Virus record (IMG/VR): IMGVR_UViG_3300023176_002025
Coordinates: 1-23,296 of that record
Length of the DNA stretch: 23,296 nt
Source: a virus
Strand: one strand, 5' to 3'
Under the pieces are notes generated by a model, which saw nothing but the letters and a program-made list of their open reading frames with translations, did not search any database and had not been told where the DNA came from. Both the position numbers and the translations under genes were made by a program. Positions within the stretch are counted from its first letter, which is position 1, and every line of letters starts with the position of its first letter. Shown here piece by piece: positions 3,001-23,296 of the stretch.

Positions 3001-6000
3001 CAAGATAGTTCATATACCAAAGGTGCTACATTAAGTCTTACCGATGGAATTAATCCAGCAATTGCAACTGCAGAAATTTTAAATGGCACTGCTGGTCAAA
3101 ATGTTGTTGAGATTAAGGTTTTAACTGGTGACTGGTTGCAGTTTAATCAAGGCGAGTATTTCTTACAATCCAACAATTTATTTGATACATCTGGAACACG
3201 ACCTGTTATTCTTACTTCTCTCAGCGATAACCTAGAACCATTTGAAGTTAATCAAAGTGTTGCCCTAGTAGAGACAGCAACAAATCACGGTATGGGTGTT
3301 GGTGATAAAGTTAATGTTGATATTTTCCCAGACGATTCTATCAAGACTAAGACTTATTATCTAAGAAAGAGATTATATCAAGATATTGTGTTGCAAGCAC
3401 CAGAGTTCAAAACATCTATTGATGATACTGGTGTTGGCAGATTTCAAATTTTAAATGGTGGCGCTGACTACACACCAGGAACATATACGAACGTTTCCAT
3501 TACTGGTGGTACTGGATCTGGATTTACAGCAACAGTTACTGTTTCTTCTGCTGGTGTAGTTTCTTCTATTCAGATTCAAGATGGTGGAACTGGATATAGA
3601 AAGGCAGATTATCTTGGTGTTGATGATGAATCTCTCGTGAGATCTGTAGCATCAACTAGCACTCAGAGATTGGTTCTATATGTTGATCATGTTGGATTTG
3701 CGGCAGGATCTACAAGTCTCACTCTTGATAGCACTACTGGCATTTCCGAGAACGATTTAATTCTTGTCGGGGAAGAAGTATTAGAAGTTTCTTCTATTAA
3801 CGGCAAGACTCTTACAGTTTTGAGAGGACAAGAGAATACCACTGATAAAGATCATTATGACGGTCAAGAAGTATCACTGTATAAACCAAGATACAACTTT
3901 GATGATAATTTCCAAATTGGTGCTGGTATTGGTAGTGGATATATTTCTTCGTATGATTTAGAAACTCAAAAGGCAACTATTGTTTATGATTATTCTACCA
4001 CAAAAGAAACGGCACAAATTATTCAAGTTAGCAGCACCTTCTTTGACGATAGTGTTCCATCCAGATTAGTATCGATTAAAACTACAGATCCTATTGAATT
4101 CAAGTTTGAGTTTTCAGAAGATAATGTAACTTATATTCCAAATCCAACAATTGAAATTCAAGAGTATTACAAGTACAAGTTTGACACTTCTCACTCTTCT
4201 CTAACGGGAACATACTTTGATTTAAGTCCTAGTAAAAATTACAATGTAATTACGACAGAAAAATTAGCATCAACTATTTTACCAGGAAACCCAGGTGCAT
4301 TTACTGATGTTAAGTTTGGATTTGGTTCTAGAATCGCGTCAAATAACTATCAAACTAAGAGAGGAACTGATTTTACAAACTTCTACTATTTTGATAAAAA
4401 AGGAGTTGTGGATTCTGATGGCAAGTACCTAAAGATTGTTTCAGATCCATTGCAAGGTGAAAAAATATTGAATTATGTTACTCCCAACAGATTTGTATAC
4501 GATATTCTAACTCCGCCACTATGGGATGGATCTGGAACTATCACCTACACAACGACAGGGCAATTTGCTGTTGGTGAACTGAATTCAATTAAAATTACAA
4601 ATCTTGGATTAAATTATAAAAAAGTTCCATCTATCTCTGGAATTGACCCAAATCAAAATTTCAAGGCAAAAGCTAGAGTATTGTTTGATGTTGCAACTAA
4701 CAGCATTACTGGCGTTGAACTAGAACAAAAAGGATCTAATTATACAAATCCAAAAGCAGTAATTATTGATGGCGATGGAATCGATGCGACATTTAACTTA
4801 GTTGTCAGAGATGGAAGTATTTTTTCTATTACTGTCAGTAATCCTGGAAGAGGGTATACGTATGCTCCAGTAATTGAAATTGTAGAGGGCGATGTTGAAG
4901 CATATGTAAACAGTTCTACTATTGGTGTACCACAAAGTATTAAGATTACCAGAAATGGTGGTGCTTTCCACCTCGACAAGACAGTATCTTCAGAATTTAC
5001 TTCTAAGTATACAGTTTCTTTAAAAAACTTTAGTGGAAATTTCCAAAAAGGAGAAACTGTTGTACAGAGAATTGGACAAACTGAAGTTTCTAGATCTGTT
5101 GTATCTGAATGGAGACTTGGATCTAATCTCCTTAAGTTAGAGAATATTCGTGGAACTCTGAGAGAAGACGTAGTTATTGAAGGACTGGTATCGAGAGCAT
5201 CTGGTACTGTAAAGGGAATCTATGCTAGCACATTTACAAATAATGTAACAGCGTTTTTTGATAATGTTGGATACTTCAAATCCGACAAAGGAAAATTAGG
5301 AGTATCCAATCAAAAATTAATTGATAGTTATTTCTATCAAGATTACTCATATGTTATTAAATCAAAAACTCCAATTGACCAGTGGAGAGATTTAATCAAA
5401 TCAACTACACACCCCGCAGGATTTAAACTGTTTGGTCAAGTTGACATTGAAACAAATGCTCCCGTTGAGATGCCAGCAGAAATGCCAAAGGCGTCGCATT
5501 TTAGTGTCATTCAACTTTGGGATCCAGATAAAAACAAAATTACAGTTGAAAACACAAGAAGAACTGTAACTCAAATTATTCAGAAGACAGAGAATCAAAG
5601 AATTCGTAAGGGAGTAGGTTCTGCTGCTACTTCTGAGTTTAATTTCAATGAATCTCGTGCATTTACATTTACACTAAATGGGTCTTTTGATGGATATTAT
5701 GATTCTAATGGTATTTTGCAAGGTACAAAAACATTCCAATTATTGGATGATCAGGGTCAACCATTTACTCCATCTAGTGCTAAAAATTTAATCGTAACAC
5801 TTGACGGAATTATTCAAGAACCAGAAGTAGCATACACTGTTTCTGGTGATAACATAGTCTTTTCACAACCACCCTTAGGTGCTAATCAAAAACTCACTGG
5901 AAACAATTTAAATGAATTAACTGATTATGCTGGAGTAACATTTTACGGAAGATATTTTAACTTTAAAGATAATCAATATAATACGAGATACTTTAAAAAA

Positions 6001-9000
6001 ATTAGAAATATCTTCCAAAGAAATGGAAGGTGGTTAGACTCTGCCAATCAAATAGAAAGAAACAAAACTTTCATTATTGAAGAGTGTATTGGTTACGGAA
6101 GATCTAAGTATCCATCTCTGGATTGGAGCACTAAGCAAGATGACTATGAGAGAGATCTTGGTTACATCTTGGATGCGTATCAGCATGACATTAGATTTGG
6201 TGGTAACGTAAAAACAGTTGATTATGTCTCATATTTTAACCAAGATGATGACTATGATTATATCACAAACAATAAAACAGAATCTTTAGGAATAATCAAG
6301 TATGCTACAAACTTGGCAAAACTTTCTGTTAGAAATTGGGATGTTGTAGAAGCGAGTGTATCTTATATACAAGGTTCAAATATAGTAACAGTCCAAGATA
6401 CAAATAGACTAGCTGTTGGTATGCATATTAGTTCTGGAAGAGCATTTGCGTCTGGAACTAAAATTGCATCAATTGATAGTGATACTCAAATTACACTATC
6501 GTCATATGCTTTAGCAAACTCAGGTGGTCTTGGTGGTGCTCCAAGTGGCATCACGGATTTAAGTGGATCTACTGGCGGAAGTGACTTTGTTATGCCAACC
6601 AGCACTGGGGAAGTTACCCCTGGAAATCAATTTGCTGTTGATCCAGGAGATATTTTACAAGCTCCAATTTCGTTCTCTTCATCGGATAGCGCATTTTTCT
6701 TCTTTAGTGGTTTGAACAATGGTACATTCTATGATGCTTCAAATCTCATTCAAGGAAACAAACTGTACTTGCAAGAAGAAATTAGTGAATACATTTATGA
6801 TACATACAATCTTCCTCAGGGAGATAAAACAAAATGCAAGAGAGATCTTGGATATTTAATTGACGCTATAGTTTATCATCTGAGACTTGGTGGAAATGAA
6901 AGGGTTGTAGAATTTGCTAGACTATATTATACGAATGCTGGATACCCATATGGAGAAACTTTAACATACATCAATAGATCTACAGAAGAAACTAACGCAG
7001 CAATTGATGCATGGACAAAACTTGGTGAAAAAATGATTCTTGCAATGAGAAATAATCTTGGGGCGGGAACTTATACCACTATCGCTCCATATGTAGATCT
7101 CACTGTTTCCACTGATACTCAAGTTCCATATTGTGCCGAAGTTGCATCTGCAATAACAACATATATTGATGTTGTCAAAAATATTCTTGCAAATGGAACT
7201 GGTGCGGTTGATTCTGTAGGAATTAATCCATCAAAACCTGGATATTGGACGGATACAAAACCAACAATTGATTACAATTTAATTCCAGATCCACAACTTC
7301 CATATAATGGAGAATGCGATGATGTAGTTTCTGCTATCGACTCCTTATATGAAAATGTCGATGATGTTCTCGACAGTCAATTAGTTTCAAAGACTCTTCC
7401 AGACTATGTGGATGGCGAGAATAAGATTTTTGAATTATATTGGGAAGATGGTTCTGAAGTCTACACAGAAGAAGATGAAGATTTATTCTTAACTATCAAC
7501 GCAGTTCTTCAGAGACCAAAGTACAATGCAGATTATCCAGGTGGAGATGCATATTATATTGATAGAAATACTATTCCAAATAAGTTGATCTTTGATGTTG
7601 CCCCAATTTGGGATCAAGATTTTGGTGCTAAAAGTATTGGAGAACCAACTGCCGTTGAAAAAGTTGTAGGTATTGGTGTTGGAAACTATAAGAGATTGAC
7701 CATTGATTACAACTTGGTTAATGGTGTTAAGAGTGGTCCTTTCTTAATTTTAGATGTAGAAGATAATACAGTTCAATCTGTTGAGGAAAAAGAATATCTT
7801 TATGTTTTCTTAGATGGCGTTCTTCAAAGAGAAGGATATAGTTATACGGTATCTGGTCCAAATATCTATTTTAATGTTCCCATTAAAAAGGAAATGAAAA
7901 TTGACATGAGATATCTCTACGGAAGAGATGTCGGTCAAATTCTTAATATCTACGATTTTGCTCCAGATACATATTTTGCTACTGGTACACTTACAATCAA
8001 CACTACATCATCTCTAATTGATGATTATACAACTTATAGATGGATGGGTGATTTGTCTGGTAATGGTGTTCATTTATGGCAAGTAAAACCAGACGGTACG
8101 TATAATGTTATTGGTAAAGTAGCAAATCTTTATAGAACTTCAGGAGTCGTGAGGTTTGATATTATTAAATCTCAGAATGGTTCTATTATTGATGGATTAG
8201 ATTTTGTATTTGCCGTTGAGGGAAGATATACTAGAACATTTACATTACCATGGTCAGAATTTACCTCCGCATCTCTTCAATATAAAGTTGATGATTATGG
8301 AAGAAAAATTCTAAGCGATGAAAATTCTCTATGGTCTGGCACTATTGTCAGAAAATACTATAGAAATCCATTTGTAAGTCTGTCAAATGGTGATAAGATT
8401 CGTGTAGAAGGAGAAGAAAAGTTTAGAAATATCAAAGTTCTTCCATCTAATACTACATCAAAAGACGGTAGAGATGGAGAACAACTTTCTGATGATATCT
8501 ACGGGGCAGTTCAAGTTGAAACTTATGCTGGAGTTACTCGTGGAGAAGGTCTAAGTGTTGTAGCAAATATTGAAAATGGAAAAGTAGTTTCTCTTTCATG
8601 GAATCAGAGAAGCTGGAATCCTCTCACCCAACCAACAGCATATCAATATTTTACTCCACCTGTTTTAGAATTCGTACCAGAAAATGGAGAAGGTGGCGGA
8701 GCAAGGGCTGCTGTTATTGTAAGCAAGGGACAAGTTGTTAGTGTTGATCTTCTTGATGGCGGATCTGGATATACCAAGGCACCAAAAGTTGTAGTTGCTA
8801 GAAGATATGAAATTCTAAATGAAAGAGATATTGGTGTATCTCTAATTAACATTGGAATAAACCCATATGTTGAAAGCAGTGGTATGACTGCAGTTTCAAC
8901 AATTAATGTCCTTGGAAATCAAGTTTCTGGTGTTAACTCTTTCACATCTGTATTCTTCAATAGTCCTATTGACACCGACAGAGTTATTACTGCCGAGATT

Positions 9001-10305: not shown

Positions 10306-12123
10306 ATGGCTGCTATTATCTCTGATAAATTTAGAATTTTTAACGCGAAGCAATTCCTTGAATCGCTAACTGAAGGTGCTACTGACACTAGTGCCGAGCG
10401 TTCCAGGATGTACTTCTTTGTGGGTCGCCCACAACCCTGGAAAGCATACTTAGAGGTTTACTCTAAGTCACCAACCAACTTCACAGTTGGCAACGAAGTG
10501 TTCATCGGTACATATGGATCTACAGCGTTCCGTGCTACTGTTTCTGCCGTTTATGATAGTGCCCTTCTTCTTACCGACGTTTTTGGCAGCAACGGTGTTA
10601 ACTCTACACCACCCCTTGGTAGCACACTACTAGAAACTGCTGATGGTGGTTCAACCACAACCAACGCAACAGCAACCACTGGTGTTTATCGCTATGGTAC
10701 TGAGGACATCCCACCTCTACCTTTAGATAACCAGAGAGAAAAGATTGGTCTGTACGACGAAATTATTGCTGCTAAGCGTATTACTGATGCTTTTGCAAGA
10801 ACTGTTGTTCGTCGTTACAACTGGGACTTAGTTGCTAATCCTAAGTTTGATATGTGGAAGCCTGATTACTCCGCTACCCCAGGTGGTGGTGGTCAAATTG
10901 GCAAACAATCTGCAACTGGTGCATCTTCTATTGCTGATTCCAAGTTCTATGTAATGAACTCAAACTATGAAGTATTCAAGTGTCTCTATAATGGAGAGAA
11001 TACTTCAAATGCAACTGGTCAGAATGCAACTGAAGAACCAATCACCACTGGTGCTAATTATGATGCTGGTACTGGTCTTTATACTGAGACTACTGGCGCT
11101 GGTTACATTTGGAAGCATATGTATACCATCCCAACAGATGATGTTCTGAAGTTCCTTTCTTCAGACTTTATGCCAATTGTTCTTCCTGCACAACCTTCTA
11201 GAGTTGCAGTTGCTGGATTGGCAGTTCCAGGTGCTCTCGATGTTGTTCTAATCGAAGATGGTGGAAATAACCTACCCGCTTTACAGACTTTATATGCTGG
11301 AGTCAAGGGAGATGGAACTGGTGGAGTTGTCAGGTTTGTTACTGATGGATCTGGAACTATCACATCTGCTTCTGTAGTTTCTCGTGGTCAAGATTACACA
11401 TATGCCAATGTTCTTCTTGGTAACGGTAATCTATTCTCTGATCCTGGTCTAGCACCTGGCGATGCAGTCACAACTCCTCCTGGTGCAACTGGTGCTCTAG
11501 AAATTGTTATGCCTCCACAGGGTGGACATGGTTCCGATCACGAAACGGAACTTAACGGCAAGCGCGTAATGACAAACATTCGCCTAACTTATGCAGAAGG
11601 TTCTGGTGACTTCCCAGTTGACAACGACTTCCGCAGAATCGGTATTATCAAAGATCCATATAACTATGGTACAACAACATTCTCAACATCGGATACATTA
11701 TCTGGTTTGAGAGCAGTTAAGATTACTGGAGCAACTGCCGATTATCTACCAGACGAAAGAATTAGTCAAACTGTATCTGGTGGCACTGCATATGGTACTG
11801 TTGTTTCATGGACTCTAGACAGTGGTTCTACTACTGATGGTGTTCTTAAGTACATCCAAACTAATGATGCACACACAGATCAGGGTGTTGTAAGAGCATT
11901 CGAAAGCAATGCTGCTAATGCAATTTCTGGTGGTCTATCCGCTGCTTCTGGTAATGTTGCAACTACATATGCGAATACTCTACTGGGTGCTACATTTGCT
12001 GCTGGTCTAGCAACTCCCGAGATTGAAAACAACTCTGGCGATGTTATCTACATCGAGAACCGTCGTCTAATCACTCGTGCTCCTGACCAGATTGAAGATA
12101 TCAAACTAGTTATCGAGTTCTGA
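10306..12123 (+). CDS. 8: Baseplate wedge protein gp8 homologue
   Basis: This is a 605-residue homologue of T4 gp8, a wedge subunit of the contractile-tail baseplate. It matches T4 gp8 in order: an N-terminal SDKFRIFNAKQFLESL (residues 6-21), MYFFVGRPQPW (35-45; T4 has I-T-F-G-R-S-E-P-W), RRYNWD (about 168-173; T4 has RRDWGD), GYIWKHMYTIP (266-276; T4 GYVWEYLFEIP), FRRIGIIKDP (T4 FRQISIITNP) and the C-terminal GDVIYIENRR plus APDQIEDIKLVIEF (T4 GEMIYMENRP ... MDQTEEINILFTF). T4 gp8 is 334 aa; the extra length is mainly inserted beta modules: about 305-400 (VVLIEDGGNN, SASVVSRGQDYTYANVLLG) and about 465-560 (SGGTAYGTVVSW). The ATG at 10306 has only a weak GGA (10295-10297) eight bases upstream, but the N-terminus matches the family. 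It is preceded by late promoters and followed by a strong terminator. Arginine codons in conserved blocks are mostly CGN, unlike the neighbouring giants. Confidence 0.95.
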   Translation: MAAIISDKFRIFNAKQFLESLTEGATDTSAERSRMYFFVGRPQPWKAYLEVYSKSPTNFTVGNEVFIGTYGSTAFRATVSAVYDSALLLTDVFGSNGVNSTPPLGSTLLETADGGSTTTNATATTGVYRYGTEDIPPLPLDNQREKIGLYDEIIAAKRITDAFARTVVRRYNWDLVANPKFDMWKPDYSATPGGGGQIGKQSATGASSIADSKFYVMNSNYEVFKCLYNGENTSNATGQNATEEPITTGANYDAGTGLYTETTGAGYIWKHMYTIPTDDVLKFLSSDFMPIVLPAQPSRVAVAGLAVPGALDVVLIEDGGNNLPALQTLYAGVKGDGTGGVVRFVTDGSGTITSASVVSRGQDYTYANVLLGNGNLFSDPGLAPGDAVTTPPGATGALEIVMPPQGGHGSDHETELNGKRVMTNIRLTYAEGSGDFPVDNDFRRIGIIKDPYNYGTTTFSTSDTLSGLRAVKITGATADYLPDERISQTVSGGTAYGTVVSWTLDSGSTTDGVLKYIQTNDAHTDQGVVRAFESNAANAISGGLSAASGNVATTYANTLLGATFAAGLATPEIENNSGDVIYIENRRLITRAPDQIEDIKLVIEF

Positions 12124-12184: not shown

Positions 12185-12209
12185 CTAGGGACTAGTGACT
12201 AGTATTTGG
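12178..12209 (+). promoter_or_regulatory. Inverted repeat overlapping the late promoter and abutting the ribosome-binding site
   Basis: CTAAATACTAG (12178-12188) pairs with CTAGTATTTGG (12199-12209): 11 pairs including one T-G, with a ten-base loop that itself holds ACTAGT. The right arm ends one base before the GGAG at 12211. The left arm is the promoter box plus four bases, so RNA started at this promoter (about 12190) would lack it. RNA reading through from upstream would carry both arms and could block ribosome access. Confidence 0.6.
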
Positions 12210-12210
12210 C

Positions 12211-12214
12211 GGAG
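12211..12214 (+). promoter_or_regulatory. Ribosome-binding site deciding the ATG at 12219
   Basis: GGAG lies four bases before ATG 12219. It favours this ATG over the in-frame GTG at 12195, which has no such site and lies within the inverted repeat. The protein then starts MPQKTNLNVNPYYEDF, as expected for the family. Confidence 0.8.
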
Positions 12215-12218
12215 TACG

Positions 12219-15200
12219 ATGCCTCAGAAGACTAACCTAAATGTAAATCCTTATTATGAGGACTTTGACGCGAATAAGAATTTCTACAAAATTCTTTTCC
12301 GTCCTGGATACTCAATTCAAGGTAGAGAATTAACTCAACTTCAATCGATTCTCCAAAATCAGGTTGAAAGTTTTGGTAGATATGCATTTAAACAGGGACA
12401 ATTAGTTATTCCTGGAGAGGTTGCTCTTAATACAAAGTTAGATTTTGTGAAGTTGTCTTCAGTCACTGAAGTTGCTATAAACGATGGTAATGATATTGTT
12501 TATAGAAAGTACGATATCACTCAACTTGTTGGACAGCAACTCAGAGGTCTTACCTCTGGAGTTAAAGCAACTGTGTTGGAAGCAAACTTAGCAACTGCAA
12601 ATTCTTCTGATACATTATATGTAAACTACCTCAATAGTGGCAACTCAAATACGGAAGAAACTTTTAGACAGGGCGAAACTTTAGAAGTAATCGATGGTGT
12701 CAATACACCTTTGATGGTTGTTGGTACTGACGGTAGTGTTCTTCCCACTAGTATTGACGTAACAGATCCAGAATCTGGTTTAACTACATCTCTAGATAGT
12801 CCCGCAATGGGATATGGTTCTGCCGTTAAGGTAGAAGAAGGCATTTATTTTGTAAATGGATATTTTGTTCGCAACGATGAACAACTCCTTGTTATTGATG
12901 AATACTACAATAAACCTTCTGCAAAAGTTGGATTCACAATTGTTGAGGAAATTGTAACCCCAGAAGAAGATGCAAGTCTTTATGATAATGCAATCGGTTC
13001 TTCAAACTATACTGCTCCTGGGGCTCATAGACTTAAGATTAGTCTGTCTCTAAAAGAATTTGCATTAAATGCAATTACAGATAAGAATTTTATTCAACTC
13101 CTAACAGTATCGAAGGGTGTAGTTCAAAGAAAAGTTTCTGCTGCTGATTATACTCTTCTTGAGCAAACTCTTGCTCGTAGGACATTTGATGAAAGTGGTG
13201 ATTATGTAGTAGATAGTTTTGCTATTGATATAAGAGAATATGCTCAGAAAGAAAGTAACATGGGCATCTACTCAGTAGATGAATTTGGATTATATAATGG
13301 TTTGACAGATGCCATGGCATCTAAGAAAATGATTGCCAGTGTTGGACCTGGAAAAGCATATATTAAAGGATATGAAATTGTAAATAAAGAAACTAAGTAT
13401 CTTGAGATCAACAAAGCAAGAGAAAGCTTATCATCAGACAACGTAACTCTTAAAACAAAGGGACTTCCAACTTATAGTATTTCTAATGTTTTTGGAAGTG
13501 TTCCTCTAAACAAAGAGGGATCTCAGTTAACTGCATATCCAACTGTATATCTTTACTCATTATTTAATGATGGTTATGTTGGATTAAATGGAACAGAGTC
13601 CGATTCTAACTATCGACAAACAATTCAAAGAAGAGGTCTTTTCTTTGATTCTAATATCGGAATCAAGACCATAACTTTGGAAATCGTTGATGTTAATATT
13701 CCCATCACATCTATTATTCCATCCGAATTAGAAACAACATTTGCAAAACTTTGGTATGTTAAAACAAGAGCAGGAACTAATGTTGTTGGAAGTGTTGATG
13801 TTCTTTCTTACACTAAGGTTTTCAAACCACTAAGAAATTCTGGAACTTCTGAAGAGTCTAGATTTTTTGAAGTTACTGTTGCTGGATTAAAAACAGATTT
13901 AGAAAATGTATTTAAAGAATATGATGAAAGTTCTGATAATAAACAGAGAAAATTATTCTTAACTCAGAATGACGCTCTTGGAGATGAGAAAGAGGGTCTT
14001 TCTTCAACTGTGTTTGCAAACATTATGGATTATAGTGATACTATTACTCCTGTAATTGGAACTGCAAAACCAAGTAATTTTTACTTACAACGCAGGGGAG
14101 ATGGATTTAATCCAGATTCAAGTATTGTAATATCTAAAGGTATTCTTCCCCAAGGAACATCTGCGTACAATGCTACTTTTGGATTGTCATATTTCGATCC
14201 ACAGTTCTTCACAAAAATAAAATTAGAATCTGTTCCACCAGAAAACACATATGATGTTGGTGTATATGTCTATGGTTTAACTAGTGGTGCCTATGGTGTA
14301 GTTGAGGGAGCTCCTGCTGGAGTATATTCAACTGGCAAACTTTTATATGTAAAGACTCTTTCTGGAAAATTTGTCCCTGGAGAAACCATTAGAGATGAAG
14401 AAGGCAATCTTGTAAAAATTGCTCAGGAAAACACACTGTCACACTTTATTGTTCAAAATAGAGGACTAGGATATCCCAATTCTTCCAGCCTTATTATTGA
14501 TGGTGTTGAATACGATCAATCAAAAATTGAAATTGGATTCCAAGGTCAAGGAATTTATAAAGTAGAAATTTTAGATAGAACTTCCGTAAATACTCAATAT
14601 GCAAGACCACCTGTAGTAACAGTTGATCCTGGAACAACCACTCCAACGGAGGCAGCTGCGGTAGTTCCTGTGTTGAATAAAAACACAGTAACAACTTACA
14701 CACCACAAAACGTAAAATCTTTTGGTTCAACTTACGGATCTGGAGGAGAAAACAAGTTTACATGTGATGTTGTAATTGATGATAGAGTATATGCAGATAT
14801 TTCTCCAGTTACAGACTTTACTTTCTTTGGATCAAAAGGATCTAAATTTTTAGAATCCACTAGTTTTAGTGCTGACGCAAGTTCTGTGGTTCAACAAGGA
14901 GATCTTGTACAATTCTCAGATGCTTCTAATAATACTATTAGAGCAATTGTACAATATGCAACTGTTCAACAAGGATCTTCGAAGACGAGAATTTATCTCG
15001 ATGAAACTCTTTATGATGACGTAACTAGCACTACAGTTGTTCGCTTGCGTCCAAAAGTAGCAAATTCCAATTCAGGAACACTACTCTTCCCAACTGGTAG
15101 TAAGCAAGTATCACAAATTTCTGCTGGAACAGAAGATAGTAAGATTAAATATTTCTTCCGCAGAGATTTTGTAACCACTGGTTCAACAGGTGGTGGTCTA

Positions 15201-18200
15201 ATTACTTTTGCTGCACAACTTCCATTTGGAACACAAAGATTTACTGCATTTAATGAGAACAATTACATTATTACGGTACTCAATAAGAATAGTGCGGATC
15301 TTGTAGAAACTGGCGACATTGTTTACATTGATGCTGATAATGTCACCATCTCATCTTCCACTGATACAGCAAGCGGATTAACTTCTGGAAGTATTCAATT
15401 CAATCTTCCAACATCATACTTCAATACTAATTTTGAAGGAGTATCAAATTATGTTGCTCCAGAACTAAAATTAACCGCAACACTAGAAGTATCTAACGCA
15501 AAACCAAGACTCAAGACAGCAGTTAGAAATAAGAGAATTGTTGTTGACTCTGCTGGCGATAGAGTAATCCCATTTAGAGGAACTGATTATGACACTGATG
15601 TTGTAGAAACTCTATCATATTCAGATGCATTCAGATTGAGATATGTTTATGAGGGAACTAGCACCCAACCACCAGAAATTGATAGTGCTGGCAACCTAGT
15701 ATCTGGAACAGATGTTACCAATAGATATACTTTTGATAACGGACAAAGAGATACAATTTACGATGTGTCTAGAATTGTTATTAGACCTGGATTTGAACCA
15801 TCTGTAGGTCAACTTGTTATTGCATTTGATTATTTTGAACAATCACAGGGAGACTTCTGTACTATTGATAGTTATCTACACGAAGCTGGTGTAACGGAAG
15901 ATGAAATTCCATCGTTTAATTCATCTGTTCTTGGAAATGTAGAACTCAAGAACCTTATAGACTTTAGACCAAAAGTTAATAGTCAGACAATTGTTCCTGG
16001 ATTCCAAGACACTGCTTCACTCGAAGTAACTACCAGCAACTTTACTGGTCCTGGTTCTGTGGTAGCAAGCACTCCTGCTCCAGACACTACACTTGAATAT
16101 ACATTCTCATTCAGTCAAGTTCAATATCTTGATCGTATTGATGGTATTTTCTTGAATAAGAAGGGAGAATTTATTGTCAAGGAAGGAAATTCTTCACTCA
16201 ACCCATCAAAACCAGATCCAGTAAAAGATTCTATTCCTCTATTCTATGCGTACATTCCTGCTTATACAAATACAAGTAAGGATGTGAGAATTACTCCTGT
16301 TGAGCACAGGCGTTATACAATGAAAGACATTGGTAAACTTGAGAAGCGTATTGAACGTCTTGAGTATTACACAACTCTTAGTATTCTTGAGCAGCAAGCA
16401 CTTAACATGCAGGTCAAGGATAGTATTGGTTTAGACAGATTTAAGTGCGGTTTCTTTGTTGATAATTTTGAAGCACATAAGGTTGGCAATCTTGTTTCTG
16501 CAGACTATAAGTGTTCTATCGACAGTAAGCAATCTGTTCTCCGCCCACAATCAAAAGAAGATTCACTGAAATTAAAAGAAGTTTACACCAGACAAGATCA
16601 AAGATCTGTTGCTGGATATCAAAAGTCTGGTGATATCGTAACTCTTCCATACTCAAAGGTTAAGTTACTTGGTAATGAGTTTGCCTCTAAGACAATCAAT
16701 CCAAATCCATTTGTTGTCTTCCAGTATGTTGGTGATGGCAAAATTTCTCCAGAGATTGATCAGTGGTATGACCAATCTATTGATCCTCTTGTTGTAGATA
16801 CTAACACCAGTATCTTTAATATTTTCCTCGCTAAGGATGATTCTAGAGAGAGTTTCTCTAGTTTACACAATTCATTTATTGTAAACTGGGTTGGCAGTTC
16901 TCCATCATTTACTTCTATCAATTCTTTAGGAGAGTCCAATACTTCCAGTGCCAAATCAACAGTAAGCGCCGCTTCGGTTGGAAGTTCTTCAAATATTAGT
17001 CCTCAAAACAACGAAGTTGGAAAAGGAGTTCAGTCAAAAACTGTAGGAGAAAATATTGTTTCCACTTCATTGCAGTTTTTTGCTAGAACTCAACCAATCA
17101 AGTTTGTCATTGGAAGACTGAAACCAAACACAAAAGTTTCCGTATTCCTTGAAGGAAGAAATATTAATCGTTGGGTAAATCCAGATTTGAGATTTACTGG
17201 AATTGCTGGAAACTCATTGTCTGCTTTTAATGGAGACATTGTAACAGATGAGAGTGGTAATGCCAGTGGATTAATTCTTTTACCTTCTGGATATCCACCC
17301 AGAGAGAATGCTACTTGGACTGGTGATGTTGGAACTGTAGACTATGATACTTCTGCAGAAGAACTGAGATTTACAGTTGGAACACTCACATTTAGATTCA
17401 CTTCAAGTGCAACAAATGCAGACAAAACAACTGTAGATACATATGCTGAAATGAAATATTATGCTACTGGCATTCTTCCAGAGAATCCAGTAAGTATTGT
17501 TTCCACAAGACCTTCATACTTCAAATCTAATGAAGGTGTTCAGTTTGTTGACAGTAATACTGATAATCCAATCAGACCCAATCCACTTGCACAGACATTT
17601 AAAGTTGAGAACTATCAAGGTGGATTATTTGTTACTGGTGCAGATCTGTTCTTTAAGAGCAAGAGTTCTGAAGTTCCAGTTAAAGTATACCTAACAAACG
17701 TAGATTACGACAAACCTGCTAAGAATATTGTTCCTGGAACTGAAAAAACTTTAACTCCATCAACTTACTTAAAGTGCTATGCTAATGGAAATTTGAATGT
17801 CACTCAAGGGGAATATGTTGTAGGAACTAGTTCTGCTGCTTCTGGTCCTATTTCCTCAATCCTTGATAAGAATGGTGTTGAATTGACTCCAACTTCGACT
17901 GGAATTTATTCTTTAACCAATGAGCAGGTTTATACTTTAATTCTTAGCAACCACAATGGTCGTTCATTTAGTCAGAACGAGCAATTAGAAATTCCTTCAG
18001 TAACATTAGCAAATTCTACTGGCGGAACAGATCTTTCATTGACAATTGCTAAGGACAGTGGAAAACTTTCCGATATTAGAATTACCAATACTGGTGCGAA
18101 TTATGATAGTGCGGTTTTGACGATTGAGAGTCCACAACTTCCTGGTGGATCTGTAGCTACAGCAAGAATCAATGTGTCAAACGGTCAGATCTATAATGCC

Positions 18201-20357
18201 GAGGTTTCTATTGCTGGATTTGGTTATACCGAAGCACCATCAGTAGTCATCAAGGGCGTTGGTAATGGCGCTGGAGGATGCACAGTAGAGACCTTTATTG
18301 ATATTGATACCCCAGCAGTTAGAATGGGCGTAGCAACGGATTTTGAGGGTGTTACAGAGTCTACTACTCCTACTAGATTCGAGTTTGATTATCCAGTGTA
18401 TCTGCAAAATGATACCGAGTACGCATTGGTTGTAGAAACAGATTCTATTGATTATGAAATGTGGGCATCCAGATTAGGAGAAACTGATCTTTCTACAAGT
18501 ACAGTTATTACATCACAACCATCTCTTGGTTCTGTTTACAAATCACAGAATACAGAAAATTGGACTGAAGATATTTTTGAAGATCTCAAGTTCTCTCTAT
18601 ACAGAGCAGAATTCGATATCACAAGACCAGCAGAACTTCTTCTTAAGAACGAAAGTCTTGGTTATGACAAGTTAACTGCTGATGCAATTGAAACCAATGC
18701 CACATCAGATTCAATTGCCACATCAAAACTGTTCAAGAACAACAACAGTGTTATTAAAGTAAATCATAGAGACAATGGATTTGAAGACAGTGGAAAATCA
18801 TATGTTTTCTTCAGAACTGTATCTGACGTTGGTGGAATCACTTCAGAGGTATTGAATACTAATCTATTTGAAGTTACAAACTCTGGACTAGACTCATATA
18901 ATATTAGAACTATTACCAAAGCATCTCAAAGTTCATTTGGTGGTGGATCTACGGCATATGCATCATATAACAGAAAGTTTGAAACTTTATATCCACAAGT
19001 TCATTATCTAACTGTTACTGGAACTAAGTTGGAAACTAAAGTAAAAACCACCAATATTATTCCAGTTGATTCATCTACTCAAAATTATACATCATATTCA
19101 CAGACGGATTTCGAAAAGACTTTCCTCAATGAACCACATTTCTTTGATAATCAGAAGGTCATTGCTTCCGAAATCAACGAGACATTAAACAATGTCGGCA
19201 GATCTCTTACTTACAAAATGGATCTCTCATCTACAGTGTCATATCTCTCACCTGTAGTTGATCTTTCAAATGCTTCTGTAAAAACTGTTACTAACAGAAT
19301 TGAAAATGCAAGCGGACAGGAAAACAGATATGGAAGAAGAAATCAAATTTTAGAATTCTATCCAGTTTTCACCTTTGCTTTATCAACAACAACTATTGGT
19401 GTGACCTATCAAAATAACCAAAGCATTAAAGGTAAGACTTCACAGGCAACTGGATCTATCGCTAAAGTAGATGGTAACAACATTTGGGTAAAACTTTCCA
19501 CAAAACAAGGATTTGTAAATGGCGAGGAGGTTGAATTAACTCAAAGCATCGCCAACCCAGTAACAGTTGGTTCTAACCCATCGCTAGTAACGCCAGTAAT
19601 TAATAGTTCAACACAATCTGCTGCTGGAGAATCAATTACTATTGTTGCTCGCAATCCAGTCGAATCTAAGATTCTTGAAACATATGATAATAGGATTACT
19701 GGAAAGTCTATTATTTGGAACAAGACCACGAGGCAGTTAACTCTCAGAACTGATATCCAACCAATCAATAATGATTACAATGGAAGAATTGTTGATAGTA
19801 ATTTGTATGCCAGAACAAATGAAGTGACTGATCAGATTGCTGATGTTTTCAGAGTTGGTGATATTATTTCATACCCAAATCAACCAGATGATGAAGCATT
19901 CTTTATGGAAGTTGCTAAGGTAACTTATAGTAATGGTATTGATTTTGTTGCTGAAGATACTTCCAAAAATAGTTCTTCTATTTCAAAATATGTGACTAAG
20001 GAAATTTACATCAATAATCCAGCAACTGCCATTGATGTACATCTGCTTGCAAATATCAAAGACGTCTCAAACATTGAAGTTCTCTATAAGTATAAGAGAG
20101 CATCAAGTCAGGAGAACTTTGAAGATTCTGAGTGGATTTATTTTAATGAGTCTGGAGAACCAGATTCTTTAGAACTTGCTACTGCAGAAAACAATATTTC
20201 AAGTATTGTAGAAAAGCAATCTTCATATCAAGATCTTAAATACAGCGTTTCCGATCTTCCAGAATTCTCTTCTTTTGCAATTAAGATTGTGATGAAAGGA
20301 GTTGATCCAGCATATGTTCCTAAGATCCAAGATATTAGAGCTGTTGCTGCATTCTAA
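12219..20357 (+). CDS. Giant DUF4815-type virion structural protein
   Basis: A 2712-residue protein. Residues 11-67 (NPYYEDFDANKNFYKILF, RPGYSIQGRELTQLQSIL, QNQVESFGRYAFKQG) match the N-terminal signature I recall for DUF4815 (PF16075), found in phage tail/baseplate proteins. A second conserved block at about 1364-1420 has a short coiled coil (MKDIGKLEKRIERLEYYTTL) then DSIGLDRFKCGFFVD. Further blocks known to me from cyanophage structural proteins are FARTQPIKFVIGRLKPNTKV (about 1620-1640), NPLAQTF with GADLFFKSK (about 1790-1815), and FDYPVYLQNDTEYALVV with LGSVYKSQ and DLKFSLYRAEF (about 2055-2131). GGxGY-type modules sit at 14440-14640 and 18051-18290. The start at 12219 is set by GGAG at 12211. 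It lies in the T4 gene 9/10 region, so a baseplate-periphery or fibre-connector role is inferred. No enzyme motif was seen. It is unusually long for the family, apparently through module insertion. Confidence 0.88.
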   Translation: MPQKTNLNVNPYYEDFDANKNFYKILFRPGYSIQGRELTQLQSILQNQVESFGRYAFKQGQLVIPGEVALNTKLDFVKLSSVTEVAINDGNDIVYRKYDITQLVGQQLRGLTSGVKATVLEANLATANSSDTLYVNYLNSGNSNTEETFRQGETLEVIDGVNTPLMVVGTDGSVLPTSIDVTDPESGLTTSLDSPAMGYGSAVKVEEGIYFVNGYFVRNDEQLLVIDEYYNKPSAKVGFTIVEEIVTPEEDASLYDNAIGSSNYTAPGAHRLKISLSLKEFALNAITDKNFIQLLTVSKGVVQRKVSAADYTLLEQTLARRTFDESGDYVVDSFAIDIREYAQKESNMGIYSVDEFGLYNGLTDAMASKKMIASVGPGKAYIKGYEIVNKETKYLEINKARESLSSDNVTLKTKGLPTYSISNVFGSVPLNKEGSQLTAYPTVYLYSLFNDGYVGLNGTESDSNYRQTIQRRGLFFDSNIGIKTITLEIVDVNIPITSIIPSELETTFAKLWYVKTRAGTNVVGSVDVLSYTKVFKPLRNSGTSEESRFFEVTVAGLKTDLENVFKEYDESSDNKQRKLFLTQNDALGDEKEGLSSTVFANIMDYSDTITPVIGTAKPSNFYLQRRGDGFNPDSSIVISKGILPQGTSAYNATFGLSYFDPQFFTKIKLESVPPENTYDVGVYVYGLTSGAYGVVEGAPAGVYSTGKLLYVKTLSGKFVPGETIRDEEGNLVKIAQENTLSHFIVQNRGLGYPNSSSLIIDGVEYDQSKIEIGFQGQGIYKVEILDRTSVNTQYARPPVVTVDPGTTTPTEAAAVVPVLNKNTVTTYTPQNVKSFGSTYGSGGENKFTCDVVIDDRVYADISPVTDFTFFGSKGSKFLESTSFSADASSVVQQGDLVQFSDASNNTIRAIVQYATVQQGSSKTRIYLDETLYDDVTSTTVVRLRPKVANSNSGTLLFPTGSKQVSQISAGTEDSKIKYFFRRDFVTTGSTGGGLITFAAQLPFGTQRFTAFNENNYIITVLNKNSADLVETGDIVYIDADNVTISSSTDTASGLTSGSIQFNLPTSYFNTNFEGVSNYVAPELKLTATLEVSNAKPRLKTAVRNKRIVVDSAGDRVIPFRGTDYDTDVVETLSYSDAFRLRYVYEGTSTQPPEIDSAGNLVSGTDVTNRYTFDNGQRDTIYDVSRIVIRPGFEPSVGQLVIAFDYFEQSQGDFCTIDSYLHEAGVTEDEIPSFNSSVLGNVELKNLIDFRPKVNSQTIVPGFQDTASLEVTTSNFTGPGSVVASTPAPDTTLEYTFSFSQVQYLDRIDGIFLNKKGEFIVKEGNSSLNPSKPDPVKDSIPLFYAYIPAYTNTSKDVRITPVEHRRYTMKDIGKLEKRIERLEYYTTLSILEQQALNMQVKDSIGLDRFKCGFFVDNFEAHKVGNLVSADYKCSIDSKQSVLRPQSKEDSLKLKEVYTRQDQRSVAGYQKSGDIVTLPYSKVKLLGNEFASKTINPNPFVVFQYVGDGKISPEIDQWYDQSIDPLVVDTNTSIFNIFLAKDDSRESFSSLHNSFIVNWVGSSPSFTSINSLGESNTSSAKSTVSAASVGSSSNISPQNNEVGKGVQSKTVGENIVSTSLQFFARTQPIKFVIGRLKPNTKVSVFLEGRNINRWVNPDLRFTGIAGNSLSAFNGDIVTDESGNASGLILLPSGYPPRENATWTGDVGTVDYDTSAEELRFTVGTLTFRFTSSATNADKTTVDTYAEMKYYATGILPENPVSIVSTRPSYFKSNEGVQFVDSNTDNPIRPNPLAQTFKVENYQGGLFVTGADLFFKSKSSEVPVKVYLTNVDYDKPAKNIVPGTEKTLTPSTYLKCYANGNLNVTQGEYVVGTSSAASGPISSILDKNGVELTPTSTGIYSLTNEQVYTLILSNHNGRSFSQNEQLEIPSVTLANSTGGTDLSLTIAKDSGKLSDIRITNTGANYDSAVLTIESPQLPGGSVATARINVSNGQIYNAEVSIAGFGYTEAPSVVIKGVGNGAGGCTVETFIDIDTPAVRMGVATDFEGVTESTTPTRFEFDYPVYLQNDTEYALVVETDSIDYEMWASRLGETDLSTSTVITSQPSLGSVYKSQNTENWTEDIFEDLKFSLYRAEFDITRPAELLLKNESLGYDKLTADAIETNATSDSIATSKLFKNNNSVIKVNHRDNGFEDSGKSYVFFRTVSDVGGITSEVLNTNLFEVTNSGLDSYNIRTITKASQSSFGGGSTAYASYNRKFETLYPQVHYLTVTGTKLETKVKTTNIIPVDSSTQNYTSYSQTDFEKTFLNEPHFFDNQKVIASEINETLNNVGRSLTYKMDLSSTVSYLSPVVDLSNASVKTVTNRIENASGQENRYGRRNQILEFYPVFTFALSTTTIGVTYQNNQSIKGKTSQATGSIAKVDGNNIWVKLSTKQGFVNGEEVELTQSIANPVTVGSNPSLVTPVINSSTQSAAGESITIVARNPVESKILETYDNRITGKSIIWNKTTRQLTLRTDIQPINNDYNGRIVDSNLYARTNEVTDQIADVFRVGDIISYPNQPDDEAFFMEVAKVTYSNGIDFVAEDTSKNSSSISKYVTKEIYINNPATAIDVHLLANIKDVSNIEVLYKYKRASSQENFEDSEWIYFNESGEPDSLELATAENNISSIVEKQSSYQDLKYSVSDLPEFSSFAIKIVMKGVDPAYVPKIQDIRAVAAF
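14440..14640 (+). repeat. GGxGY-type modules in the DUF4815 protein
   Basis: Contains SHFIVQNRGLGYPNSSSLI, then GIYKVEILDRTSVNTQYARP and PVVTVDPG. It is preceded by a G-A-x-G-V-V-E unit (GLTSGAYGVVEGAPAG) that resembles gp8 (SGGTAYGTVVSW) and the first giant protein (SSGASGVIVGEV). Confidence 0.5.
18051..18290 (+). repeat. GGxGY-type module pair in the DUF4815 protein
   Basis: Encodes DIRITNTGANYDSAVLTI and AEVSIAGFGYTEAPSVVI, joined by ATARINVSNGQIYN and followed by GVGNGAGG. This is the clearest copy in this protein. Confidence 0.6.
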
Positions 20358-20366
20358 TTTCCGCGT

Positions 20367-20582
20367 ATGGGTTACCTCAAAGTTAAAGGGCATGATGGTC
20401 TTGTCAGAGACGAGACCACAGGTGCTATCTTGAATTACGACGATTCTGCCATCCAAGCAAGGCGTAAACAAAAACAATTGAATTCCGCGTTGGAAGACAT
20501 AAATATGTTGAAGGATGAAGTCTCTGAAATCAAATCCCTACTTAGAGAGTTAATAAGAAATGCCAGCAATTCAAGTCGCTAG
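20367..20582 (+). CDS. Small conserved-looking coiled-coil protein of the structural cluster
   Basis: 71 residues. The N-terminal half reads MGYLKVKGHDGLVRDETTG, then AILNYDDSAI; the G-H-x-x-L-V-R-D-x-x-T-G-A-I-x-N pattern is one I recall from short unnamed proteins in marine T4-like phages. The second half (about residues 32-65) is charged with regular leucine/isoleucine spacing (LNSALEDINMLKDEVSEIK, SLLRELI) and should form a coiled coil. It starts nine bases after the DUF4815 stop with no clear ribosome-binding site, so translation is probably coupled. Its last 23 bases overlap the next gene. It has no signal peptide or membrane segment. Possible roles are a small virion subunit that trimerises with, or an assembly helper for, the fibre-like protein downstream; function is unknown. 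The antisense frame at 20223-20477 is taken to be a shadow. Confidence 0.85.
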   Translation: MGYLKVKGHDGLVRDETTGAILNYDDSAIQARRKQKQLNSALEDINMLKDEVSEIKSLLRELIRNASNSSR

Positions 20583-23296
20583 AACTGACACTTTTGAAAC
20601 ACAAAGAGTCAAAATTAATCAAATTGGTGCTCAAATATTTGATGTTACCCAAGGTGGTAGTGATCTTGCTACTGGCAATTTAAAGTTGGGTGATGGTACA
20701 CGAACTGCTCCATCCCTAGCATTTACTTCCGATGCTTCTCTTGGAATTTATAAACCTCAAGATGGATATTTTGGGTATGTATATTCTGGGAGAAAATTAT
20801 TAGATATTTCACCAGAGACTTTTATTTCATATCAGGATATTGTTTTACAACAAAAAATTATTGATGGATCGACATTATCTTTGAATAGTGGTGGATCTAA
20901 CTATGATCCTGGTGTATATTCAAATATCAGTCTTACTGGAGGAACTGGTTTTGGTGCATTATCCAACATTACTGTTGTAGATTATTCTGGCACGATTACC
21001 AATAGCGGAGCAAATTACACTCCAGGATCTTATGTTCTAGTCCCTCTTGATGGTGGCAATGGAACAGGAGCAGAAGCATCATTTGTAATTGATGATATTG
21101 ATGGTGATATTTTAGACGTTGGTAATGGATATATCCCTGGTGTTTATCCTGCTGTTCCTCTAACAGGTGGATCTGGAACTGGTGCTGAAGCAGAAATAAC
21201 CATTACAGGTACTGTTAGTATCACGACAACAGTATCTAATGCTGGCACTGGATATACAGATGGTTCTTATCCTGCTGTATTGTTATTCAACGAACCGACA
21301 CAAACTTTTACAGTTACTGTTATTGCTAATCCTGGTTCTGCACCACCAGATAATGTATACCAAATTGATGGTAATACTCAAGCAACTCTATCCCTAACAA
21401 AAGGAAATACTTATTGGTTTGATGTTTCCGATGCTAGTAATGCTGAACACCCATTCGTTCTGCAGTTGAGTGATGGATCCCCACTTCCAGCAGATCAATA
21501 TGCCATTTCTCAAAATGGATCTGGTGGAAATAGTGGATCATATATCGAATTAGTAATTAAACCAGATGCTACAGAATCTCAATTAAAATATGATTGTGCA
21601 GTGCATCCAAATATGGGTGCTGGAATTAATTTATCTACAGGAACTTTAGGAGATTATGGCAATGGTGCCGTAGCACAAATTGATGTTTCTAGTGGATCAG
21701 TTACAAATTTCACGATTGTTACTGCAGGAGATGATTACAAAACTTCAGATATTTTAAGAATAGGCACAGATATCTTAGGATTTGGAAATGGATTTTCTGC
21801 AACTATCACTAATATTACATATGATGGTATAGTATCTGCTATTACCGTTACAGATCCAGGACAAAATTATGCTATTGATGATGTACTGTCATTTTCAAAC
21901 ACCAGTATTGGTGGAACAGGTTCTGGATTTAGTTATACTGTAACTACAAATCCAGGTATTTTAACTGAAATCACTTTAAGTCAATATGGAACTGGATATC
22001 AACTCAATGATGTACTCTTCTTACCAGAAGAAGTAACAAACGTCTCTACTTCATTAAATGGAAGTATTGATGGACTTACTACCACTCTATCTACTGGATC
22101 CACAAATATAACAGTTACCGACACTGCTGGTATTTCTGCTGGAATGATTGTGTTTACTCAGCAGGGAAGCACAGGAACTTTAGACCCAGAAACTGTAGTC
22201 CAAAGCGTAGTTAGTTCAACTGTTATCGAATTATCACTAGCTCCAACTGGAGATGGAGCAGCAACTTTATCTTTTAATACACAAGAACCATCATCTTCCA
22301 TTACACTACCTTCAACCGCTGGAATATTTGTTGGATATGAAATAGTTAAATTATCTGGTAGTGGAGTTTTAGATGCAAATACTACTGTAACTTCGGTAGA
22401 TACTAACACAAACATCATTGGATTGTCTGCAAACGCACTTGTTCCTGGACCTGTTGTTTTGGAATTTGTTCCACCTTATGGAAAAGTTACACAAAGAGCA
22501 GAATACACTATCCAAGATCTTGGCACCGTTTCTTCAGTAACATTATCAGATGGTGGTATTGGATATTCGGAACTTGATAATTTATCTGTAAATCCTTTAG
22601 ATCTAACACAAGATATCACATATCTTGTTACAAATAAGAATATACAGACACTAACTTTCAATCCACCACTATCTGCAGGAACAATTTCTGTAGGTGATGA
22701 AGTTAGATTATCGGACAGAGATGTTGTTACATTTACTATAGATACAAGTCCAATACTCAATCCAACAACTGTTGGTCCCCTATCGACAACTTTATCAAAT
22801 TCTTCGGCAACGATCACAGTTTCTAATACCAGTGGTATTTCTGCTGGAATGTTAGTAGCACAAGATTCTAATGACACTGGACTATTGGATTTTGCTACTA
22901 CTGTTCTTAGTGTGGATAGTTCCACTACTTTAACACTTTCATTAACTCCAATTGTATCTGGAGCAGCAAATTTAACTTTTGCCACAAATGAATCTGGATC
23001 TTATAATAATATAGCATCATCTTCAAGTGGATCTGGAACTGGGGCAACATTTAATGTTGTTAGATCTCCAGACGGAGTAGTTGCAACAGTTCAATTAAAT
23101 TCTGGTGGAAAATTTTACTTACAAAATGATACCATAACTATCTCTGGATCTGATGTTGGTGGATCTTCACCAACTCATGATATTGTGCTAACAGTTTCTT
23201 CTGTATTAGAACTTCAAAATAGCACTGTATATGAAACTATTTTATCAGGGTCGGACATTTCTGGTATTAGAATTGATGCTGGAACATATGCTGATA
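20560..23296 (+). CDS. Tail-fibre-like virion protein with a cupredoxin-like domain (3' end outside window)
   Basis: From ATG 20560 (MPAIQVARTDTFETQRVKIN) the frame is open to the window edge, 912 codons so far. Residues about 43-90 (GDGTRTAPSLAFTSDASLGI, YKPQDGYFGYVYSGRKLLDI) match a motif common in phage tail fibres (A-P-S-hydrophobic-x-F ... D-x-x-x-G-I-Y-x-P). Residues 107-250 are GGxGY-type modules, about 248-361 a cupredoxin-like domain with candidate copper ligands H297, C346, H349 and M352, about 365-492 more GGxGY modules, and about 507-812 three GISAGM-type units around another GGxGY segment. AGAGAG (20544-20549) ten bases upstream is a possible ribosome-binding site, inside the previous gene, and the 23-base overlap suggests coupling. 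The fibre assignment rests on the N-terminal motif and context; no receptor-binding tip or chaperone domain is visible because the C-terminus is missing. Confidence 0.88.
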   Translation, partial: MPAIQVARTDTFETQRVKINQIGAQIFDVTQGGSDLATGNLKLGDGTRTAPSLAFTSDASLGIYKPQDGYFGYVYSGRKLLDISPETFISYQDIVLQQKIIDGSTLSLNSGGSNYDPGVYSNISLTGGTGFGALSNITVVDYSGTITNSGANYTPGSYVLVPLDGGNGTGAEASFVIDDIDGDILDVGNGYIPGVYPAVPLTGGSGTGAEAEITITGTVSITTTVSNAGTGYTDGSYPAVLLFNEPTQTFTVTVIANPGSAPPDNVYQIDGNTQATLSLTKGNTYWFDVSDASNAEHPFVLQLSDGSPLPADQYAISQNGSGGNSGSYIELVIKPDATESQLKYDCAVHPNMGAGINLSTGTLGDYGNGAVAQIDVSSGSVTNFTIVTAGDDYKTSDILRIGTDILGFGNGFSATITNITYDGIVSAITVTDPGQNYAIDDVLSFSNTSIGGTGSGFSYTVTTNPGILTEITLSQYGTGYQLNDVLFLPEEVTNVSTSLNGSIDGLTTTLSTGSTNITVTDTAGISAGMIVFTQQGSTGTLDPETVVQSVVSSTVIELSLAPTGDGAATLSFNTQEPSSSITLPSTAGIFVGYEIVKLSGSGVLDANTTVTSVDTNTNIIGLSANALVPGPVVLEFVPPYGKVTQRAEYTIQDLGTVSSVTLSDGGIGYSELDNLSVNPLDLTQDITYLVTNKNIQTLTFNPPLSAGTISVGDEVRLSDRDVVTFTIDTSPILNPTTVGPLSTTLSNSSATITVSNTSGISAGMLVAQDSNDTGLLDFATTVLSVDSSTTLTLSLTPIVSGAANLTFATNESGSYNNIASSSSGSGTGATFNVVRSPDGVVATVQLNSGGKFYLQNDTITISGSDVGGSSPTHDIVLTVSSVLELQNSTVYETILSGSDISGIRIDAGTYAD
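20880..21300 (+). repeat. Tandem GGxGY-type modules before the cupredoxin-like domain
   Basis: Four units in a row: LNSGGSNYDPGVYSNISLTG; ITNSGANYTPGSYVLVPLDG; LDVGNGYIPGVYPAVPLTGG; TVSNAGTGYTDGSYPAVLLF. Linkers are G-x-G-x-G-A-E-A-x. The regular spacing of about 35-45 residues suggests a repetitive beta structure. Confidence 0.7.
21301..21645 (+). other. Cupredoxin-like (blue-copper-type) domain with intact ligand set
   Basis: Residues about 248-361 follow the cupredoxin pattern: TFTVTVIAN, a lysine/glycine turn before NTYWFDVSD, SNAEHPFVLQLSDG carrying a first His (H297, codon 21448-21450), a variable loop, YIELVIKP, then KYDCAVHPNMGAGINL. The last block has Cys346 (21595), His349 (21604) and Met352 (21613), spacing C-x2-H-x2-M, which is the spacing of amicyanin (Cys92, His95, Met98). 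The fold and ligands are read from motif; copper binding is inferred. Confidence 0.72.
21652..22035 (+). repeat. GGxGY-type modules after the cupredoxin-like domain
   Basis: The units are NFTIVTAGDDYKTSDILRIG, ITVTDPGQNYAIDDVLSF and ITLSQYGTGYQLNDVLFL. Here the turn is followed by D-x-L rather than by P-x-V, a subtype distinct from the tandem array at 20880-21300. Confidence 0.6.
22078..22995 (+). repeat. Three GISAGM-type beta units in the fibre-like protein
   Basis: The copies are 22078-22290 (STNITVTDTAGISAGMIV), 22291-22482 (SSITLPSTAGIFVGYEIV) and 22783-22995 (SATITVSNTSGISAGMLV). Each continues with V-x-S-V-x-S/T-x-T-x-I-x-L-S. Copies 1 and 3 share an identical 18-base DNA stretch, GGTATTTCTGCTGGAATG, at 22129-22146 and 22834-22851. 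The segment 22540-22600 between copies 2 and 3 is a GGxGY unit (LSDGGIGYSELDNLSV). A related unit lies in the first giant protein at about 6355-6540. Confidence 0.65.

Follow-up and report, generated by a model that had tools for sequence, protein, structure and literature searches.

A predicted cupredoxin-like domain bearing type 1 copper-type ligands in a structural protein of a marine cyanophage

Introduction

The locus examined here raises the question of whether a complete set of candidate copper ligands lying in the interior of a phage structural protein marks a genuine cupredoxin-type metal site, and of what such a site would be doing on the phage particle. Two histidines, one cysteine and one methionine in a cupredoxin fold make up the type 1 copper set, and metal in marine phage tails has so far been discussed mainly for iron. 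No description of a cupredoxin or blue copper domain in phage structural proteins was found in full-text searches of openly accessible, published papers.

The DNA analyzed, referred to below as the window, is the whole 23.3 kb IMG/VR virus record IMGVR_UViG_3300023176_002025, positions 1-23,296. The explanation preferred in the present work, to which a probability of about 0.62 is assigned, is that the segment is a metal-pinned cupredoxin module of the host-recognition apparatus, with copper the most likely metal and with one canonical site normally kept per protein.

The locus and its neighbourhood

The features of the window are as follows.

1-10251: large baseplate-type protein with a YHYH domain
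10306-12123: gp8-like baseplate wedge protein
12195..20357, plus strand: DUF4815 protein (Pfam E 5.5e-50; neighbours)
20366-20562: short 65-aa ORF that overlaps the structural gene at its start
20560..23296, plus strand: virion structural protein gene (phrog_6005; PHROG E 2.6e-197; synteny), with its 3' end beyond the window
20872..21294, plus strand: upstream array of GGxGY-type structural modules, aa ~105-245 (from the sequence)
21298..21639, plus strand: predicted cupredoxin-like domain, copy 1, aa 247-360 (~115 residues; AlphaFold2 pLDDT 92.8, Foldseek PDB, relatives)
21448..21450, plus strand: His297, predicted first ligand (conserved in 98.8% of 83 non-redundant domains)
21595..21597, plus strand: Cys346, predicted ligand and sole Cys of the domain (98.8% of the 83)
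21604..21606, plus strand: His349, predicted ligand (98.8% of the 83)
21613..21615, plus strand: Met352, predicted axial ligand (97.6% of the 83)
21643..22000, plus strand: downstream array of GGxGY-type structural modules, aa ~362-480 (from the sequence)

The structural ORF begins at the ATG at 20560 and runs off the end of the window; a second contig, L002, which is identical across an overlap of 2737 bases, extends the ORF at 20560-23296 to about 1363 aa. The assignment to phrog_6005 rests on the profile match and on the position of the gene 3' of the DUF4815/VrlC-like gene, and both the order and the families of the genes are those of Kyanoviridae cyanophages (Syn1, S-H9-1, S-CAM4, S-PM2 and others). 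In related myophages the host-recognition cluster starts directly 3' of VrlC, and the genes downstream of VrlC are tail fibres in most genomes (PMC7029224). The position of the structural gene after the DUF4815/VrlC-like gene speaks for a place of the domain in the host-recognition apparatus. The gene at the DUF4815 position in Syn1 and S-PM2 is labelled a "virulence associated protein" (T4-GC 828), and at the position of the 65-aa ORF a gene of similar size is annotated in relatives (T4-GC 112 in Syn1 and S-PM2).

The initial annotation of this DNA had identified H297, C346, H349 and M352 as a copper ligand set with amicyanin-like spacing, sited between two GGxGY arrays. All four residues are confirmed exactly as placed, the spacing is indeed C-x2-H-x2-M, with 49 residues between the first His and the Cys, and the domain does lie between the arrays listed above.

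Fold of the domain

The AlphaFold2 model of the domain, built from a 69-sequence alignment, has nine strands and a pTM of 0.87. By DSSP assignment, H58 of the model (H297) lies just before the strand at 60-64, C107 (C346) ends the strand at 102-107, and H110 and M113 precede the strand at 115-120, so that the ligand layout in the model is canonical, with the first His before a strand and C-x2-H-x2-M in the loop joining the last two strands. Among PDB structures, Foldseek ranks copper nitrite reductase (2dv6, E 1.2e-4) first, followed by laccases; only five matches fall below E 1e-3, and the TM-scores to PDB cupredoxins are moderate, at 0.5-0.6. Among viral models, the matches by fold are to cyanophage tail-fibre, virion and baseplate-connector proteins. 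Small giant-virus beta-sandwich proteins in BFVD also match the model by fold with TM about 0.6-0.7 (Pithovirus LCPAC302/304 and Marseillevirus LCMAC201/202).

The claim of cupredoxin affinity fared differently at different depths of comparison. At the level of direct sequence search there was no Pfam or NCBIfam family match, either for the domain of the window protein or, against Pfam, for 18 members of the family, none of which (0/18) matched PF00127 (Copper-bind) above its curated score. A remote relationship to Copper-bind did appear when profile was compared with profile, and copper proteins lead the fold search. A profile built from 255 members of the family matched a Copper-bind set drawn from genomes with a probability of 66% and a score of 31.1, compared with 15.8 for the reversed profile and at most 16.5 for 40 shuffled profiles; the alignment spans the G-x-T strand and the Y-x-C-x2-H motif, with the first His off by a few residues. 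With a larger alignment, plastocyanins and a pseudoazurin occur among the sub-threshold PDB sequence matches.

Three of the features by which the cupredoxin superfamily is recognized are found here, namely a beta-sandwich fold in the model, with more than the usual minimum of 7-8 strands, a conserved His...Cys-x2-His-x(2-4)-Met pattern and the placement of the ligands, and on the strength of the model aa 247-360 is predicted to fold as a true cupredoxin-like beta-sandwich carrying type 1 copper-type ligands. Several other assignments were rejected. Pfam hints of Laminin_G_3 and SAMP2 (E 0.03-0.06) are not common to the relatives, and a weak PDB phmmer match to pyranose dehydrogenase disappears when a profile is used. 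In multicopper oxidases, several cupredoxin domains are accompanied by type 2/3 His-x-His motifs; the phage protein has one contiguous domain and a split copy, there is no His-x-His motif in the domain, and 32/83 relatives have two His only.

Conservation of the ligands

The sample comprised at least 240 viral loci from three scans and 28 loci from bacterial and archaeal genome records; the domain family is larger than this. The search patterns of two of the viral scans contained no ligand residues, so the ligand conservation seen in those scans was not created by the patterns, while one pattern of the third scan (A4) included the first His.

An alignment of 18 divergent phage relatives has nine invariant columns, of which the H, C, H and M columns are four. 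Among 83 domains sharing less than 70% identity, the four ligands are kept at 98-99%, against 48% for the median column, and the full H-C-H-M set is complete in 81/83; among the matches listed, it is complete in 262/267 distinct domains. The relatives keep the ligands, in 18/18 of the divergent set and in nearly all of the non-redundant one. The two non-redundant exceptions are the domain of contig L070, in which all four ligands have been lost together, and an extra copy in L026, in which Glu replaces Met. The latter (L026:3667-4023) is an unsplit additional domain 3' of copy 1 with longer Cys-His spacing.

This conservation rules out a chance motif. A disulfide role for the Cys is also ruled out and does not account for its conservation, because 76/83 of the non-redundant domains have a single Cys. 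In 88% of the 83 domains the first His is followed by Pro. In the Copper-bind proteins collected it is followed by Asn, Asp or Thr, but the pattern used to select that set demanded N, T or D.

A second, split copy

New in the present work is the observation that orthologues of the protein hold a second copy of the domain, split by a nested module. In full-length orthologues this second cupredoxin-like domain lies near aa 925-1115, in two halves that flank a nested beta module roughly 80 residues long. The contig that extends the window protein supplies one further feature.

L002:5035-5661: second cupredoxin-like domain (copy 2), with the first H, and with C-x6-H-x2-E in place of C-x2-H-x2-M

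The model of this copy (pLDDT 85) has the strand order of copy 1, with the insert between the halves. The fold search with it returned nothing significant, the top match being an Arthrobacter phage Bridgette protein (E 0.013), with the cupredoxin AcoP at E 0.16; copy 2 is assigned as cupredoxin-like by its sequence homology to copy 1 and by its strand order. Its C-x6-H-x2-E pattern, common in outline to about a dozen relatives, would perhaps make a different metal site, to judge from the residues. The initial annotation had argued that the domain is not a decayed remnant; this is right for copy 1, and a largely decayed sister domain lies further along the same protein.

The states of the two copies were compared in the 51 proteins in which copy 2 is visible. 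Where copy 1 is intact, copy 2 is canonical in 1/41 proteins (L079); where copy 1 is absent or without its ligands, copy 2 is canonical in 8/10 (ACG-2014e, IMG/VR contig L070, Sf-CH11, S-RSM4, ACG-2014j US23, Sf-FP1, Sf-FR1 and S-RIM44 Np_42). Of the other two, S-PM2 has no canonical set, its copy 2 being C-x6-H with Glu for Met, and S-WAM2 has none in either copy. In three proteins with an intact copy 1 (L040, L041 and L056), copy 2 retains H, C, H and M with six residues between C and H. The difference between 1/41 and 8/10 has a Fisher p of 6e-7, or 1e-5 without near-copies, in both cases uncorrected for kinship; the tree of the N-terminal part contains four changes of copy-1 state, and a kinship-corrected test has one to four independent pairs, which is too few for significance. 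A redundant site under relaxed selection would produce such a pattern, which suggests that a single canonical site in each protein is normally favoured. The site can be dispensed with, as S-PM2 and S-WAM2 both do without any canonical set.

Comparison with known metal proteins

The phage domain shares with the type 1 cupredoxins plastocyanin, pseudoazurin and amicyanin (PF00127) a Greek-key-type beta-sandwich, as modelled, with a His before a strand and a Cys-His-Met loop between the last two strands that has the amicyanin-like C-x2-H-x2-M spacing. It differs from them in lacking a Pfam match, in having Pro rather than Asn, Asp or Thr after the first His, and in being embedded in a virion structural protein, whereas they are free electron carriers. 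Cyanophage PetE plastocyanin likewise has a phage-encoded cupredoxin-type ligand set, but it is a free electron carrier expressed in the host, outside the virion proteins (PMC3037559).

The HxH iron sites of T4 gp37 and alterophage R22Y have in common with the predicted site the presence of metal in a phage tail and a proposed role in adsorption (PMC11705849), but they consist of His pairs in trimeric fibres that bind iron, with neither a cupredoxin fold nor Cys or Met ligands. The same phages have another metal site predicted in their virion proteins, that of the YHYH domain (PF14240) of baseplate proteins, a family for which a zinc site has been predicted; it has another fold and other ligands (three His and an Asp) and is a predicted zinc hydrolase (PMC7824862). 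In the window this domain (E 7e-29) lies at 2158-2472, aa 720-824 of the ORF at 1-10251, and together with the cupredoxin-like domain it may give the phage tail two different metal sites. The same ORF also has, at about 4141-4314 (aa 1381-1438), a weak match to the profile of the present cupredoxin-like family (E 0.001, against a small database); this region is conserved in 60 phage records and has no His, Cys or Met ligands, and the sequence is possibly that of a further degenerate cupredoxin-like copy.

Weighing of the explanations

The initial annotation had named structural stabilisation, copper or redox sensing at the cell surface, and binding of a host envelope component as possible roles. 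In the preferred explanation, the domain would take up a copper ion from the lysate or from seawater, either while the particle assembles or afterwards. The ion would hold the His and Cys-His-Met loops together, and the pinned loops would fix the tip of a module that is inserted between structural modules and probably exposed on the tail or baseplate region. The split copy 2 has usually lost its canonical set when copy 1 has one, and mostly keeps it otherwise. The sequence, the conservation of the ligands, the confidently modelled fold, the spread of the family and the complementary states of the two copies are established here; we infer that the site is loaded with metal, that this metal is copper, that the virion of this phage contains the protein, and that it acts at the host surface. 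Copper is favoured because the ligand set is His2-Cys-Met, and a structural or contact role is favoured over electron transfer because the gene context is that of a virion structural protein. Counting against the explanation as a whole are the missing Pfam and NCBIfam matches, the modest TM-scores, the Pro after the first His, and S-PM2 and S-WAM2, which have no set. Counting against copper in particular is the assembly of phage tails in the cytoplasm, a compartment with little free copper.

The last point leads directly to an unlikely but substantial alternative, in which the fold holds a metal other than copper, such as zinc or iron, as a purely structural staple in the manner of the HxH iron sites of tail fibres. 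Assembly in the cytoplasm would favour such metals, iron is bound by the fibres of T4 and of marine phages (PMC11705849), and the neighbouring baseplate protein has a domain with a predicted zinc site (PMC7824862); the Met ligand, however, is conserved nearly as well as the His and Cys, and the set it completes is that of type 1 copper. A role without any metal, as a cupredoxin-derived adhesion module that binds a receptor or glycan and keeps the four residues for packing, is less probable still. It fits the adhesion-like modules that surround the domain in the host-recognition region, as well as the sister copy that retains the strand order without the ligands, but it fits poorly with four polar or soft residues conserved at 98-99% in a domain whose median column is at 48%, with their simultaneous disappearance in L070, and with the retention of the copy 2 ligands mainly in proteins whose copy 1 is without them. 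That the domain is a redox protein, exchanging electrons with the host surface or mimicking plastocyanin, is very improbable: the ligand set is that of plastocyanin and amicyanin, and cyanophages do encode petE plastocyanin as a separate gene (PMC3037559), but the present gene is a virion structural gene away from metabolic genes, and the family occurs also in phages of non-photosynthetic hosts (Pelagibacter, Methylophilales) and in SAR86 lipoproteins.

Distribution and significance

The domain is an uncatalogued one carried by hundreds of other marine phages. Cyanophages, as well as phages that infect Pelagibacter and Methylophilales, have relatives about 30-50% identical to it, and the PHROG families matched are tail fibre, baseplate wedge subunit, wedge-fibre connector and virion structural protein. 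Proteins with the domain are labelled "structural protein", "tail fiber" or "hypothetical" in the annotated records seen, and there is no curated model.

A wider proposal is put forward tentatively, at somewhat less than even odds: that true blue-copper-type sites are a standard host-recognition module of marine phage virions, that in the present protein selection maintains a single working site, whose place has shifted between two paralogous domains, that virion copper matters for infection, and that phages carry marine copper. A type 1 copper ligand set in so widespread a virion domain would give the particles of T4-like cyanophages and of other marine phages a copper-dependent stability or host-contact step, which could be tested with one purified domain.

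The domain also occurs in cellular genome records. A Pelagibacteraceae record has it towards the C-terminus of a T7-type tail fibre (PF03906), a locus that is presumably phage sequence. In the SAR86 records L276, L283, L284 and L288 it occurs with intact ligands in proteins that have lipoprotein-like signal sequences, and it is possible that these proteins are a cellular reservoir, or a recipient, of the phage domain.
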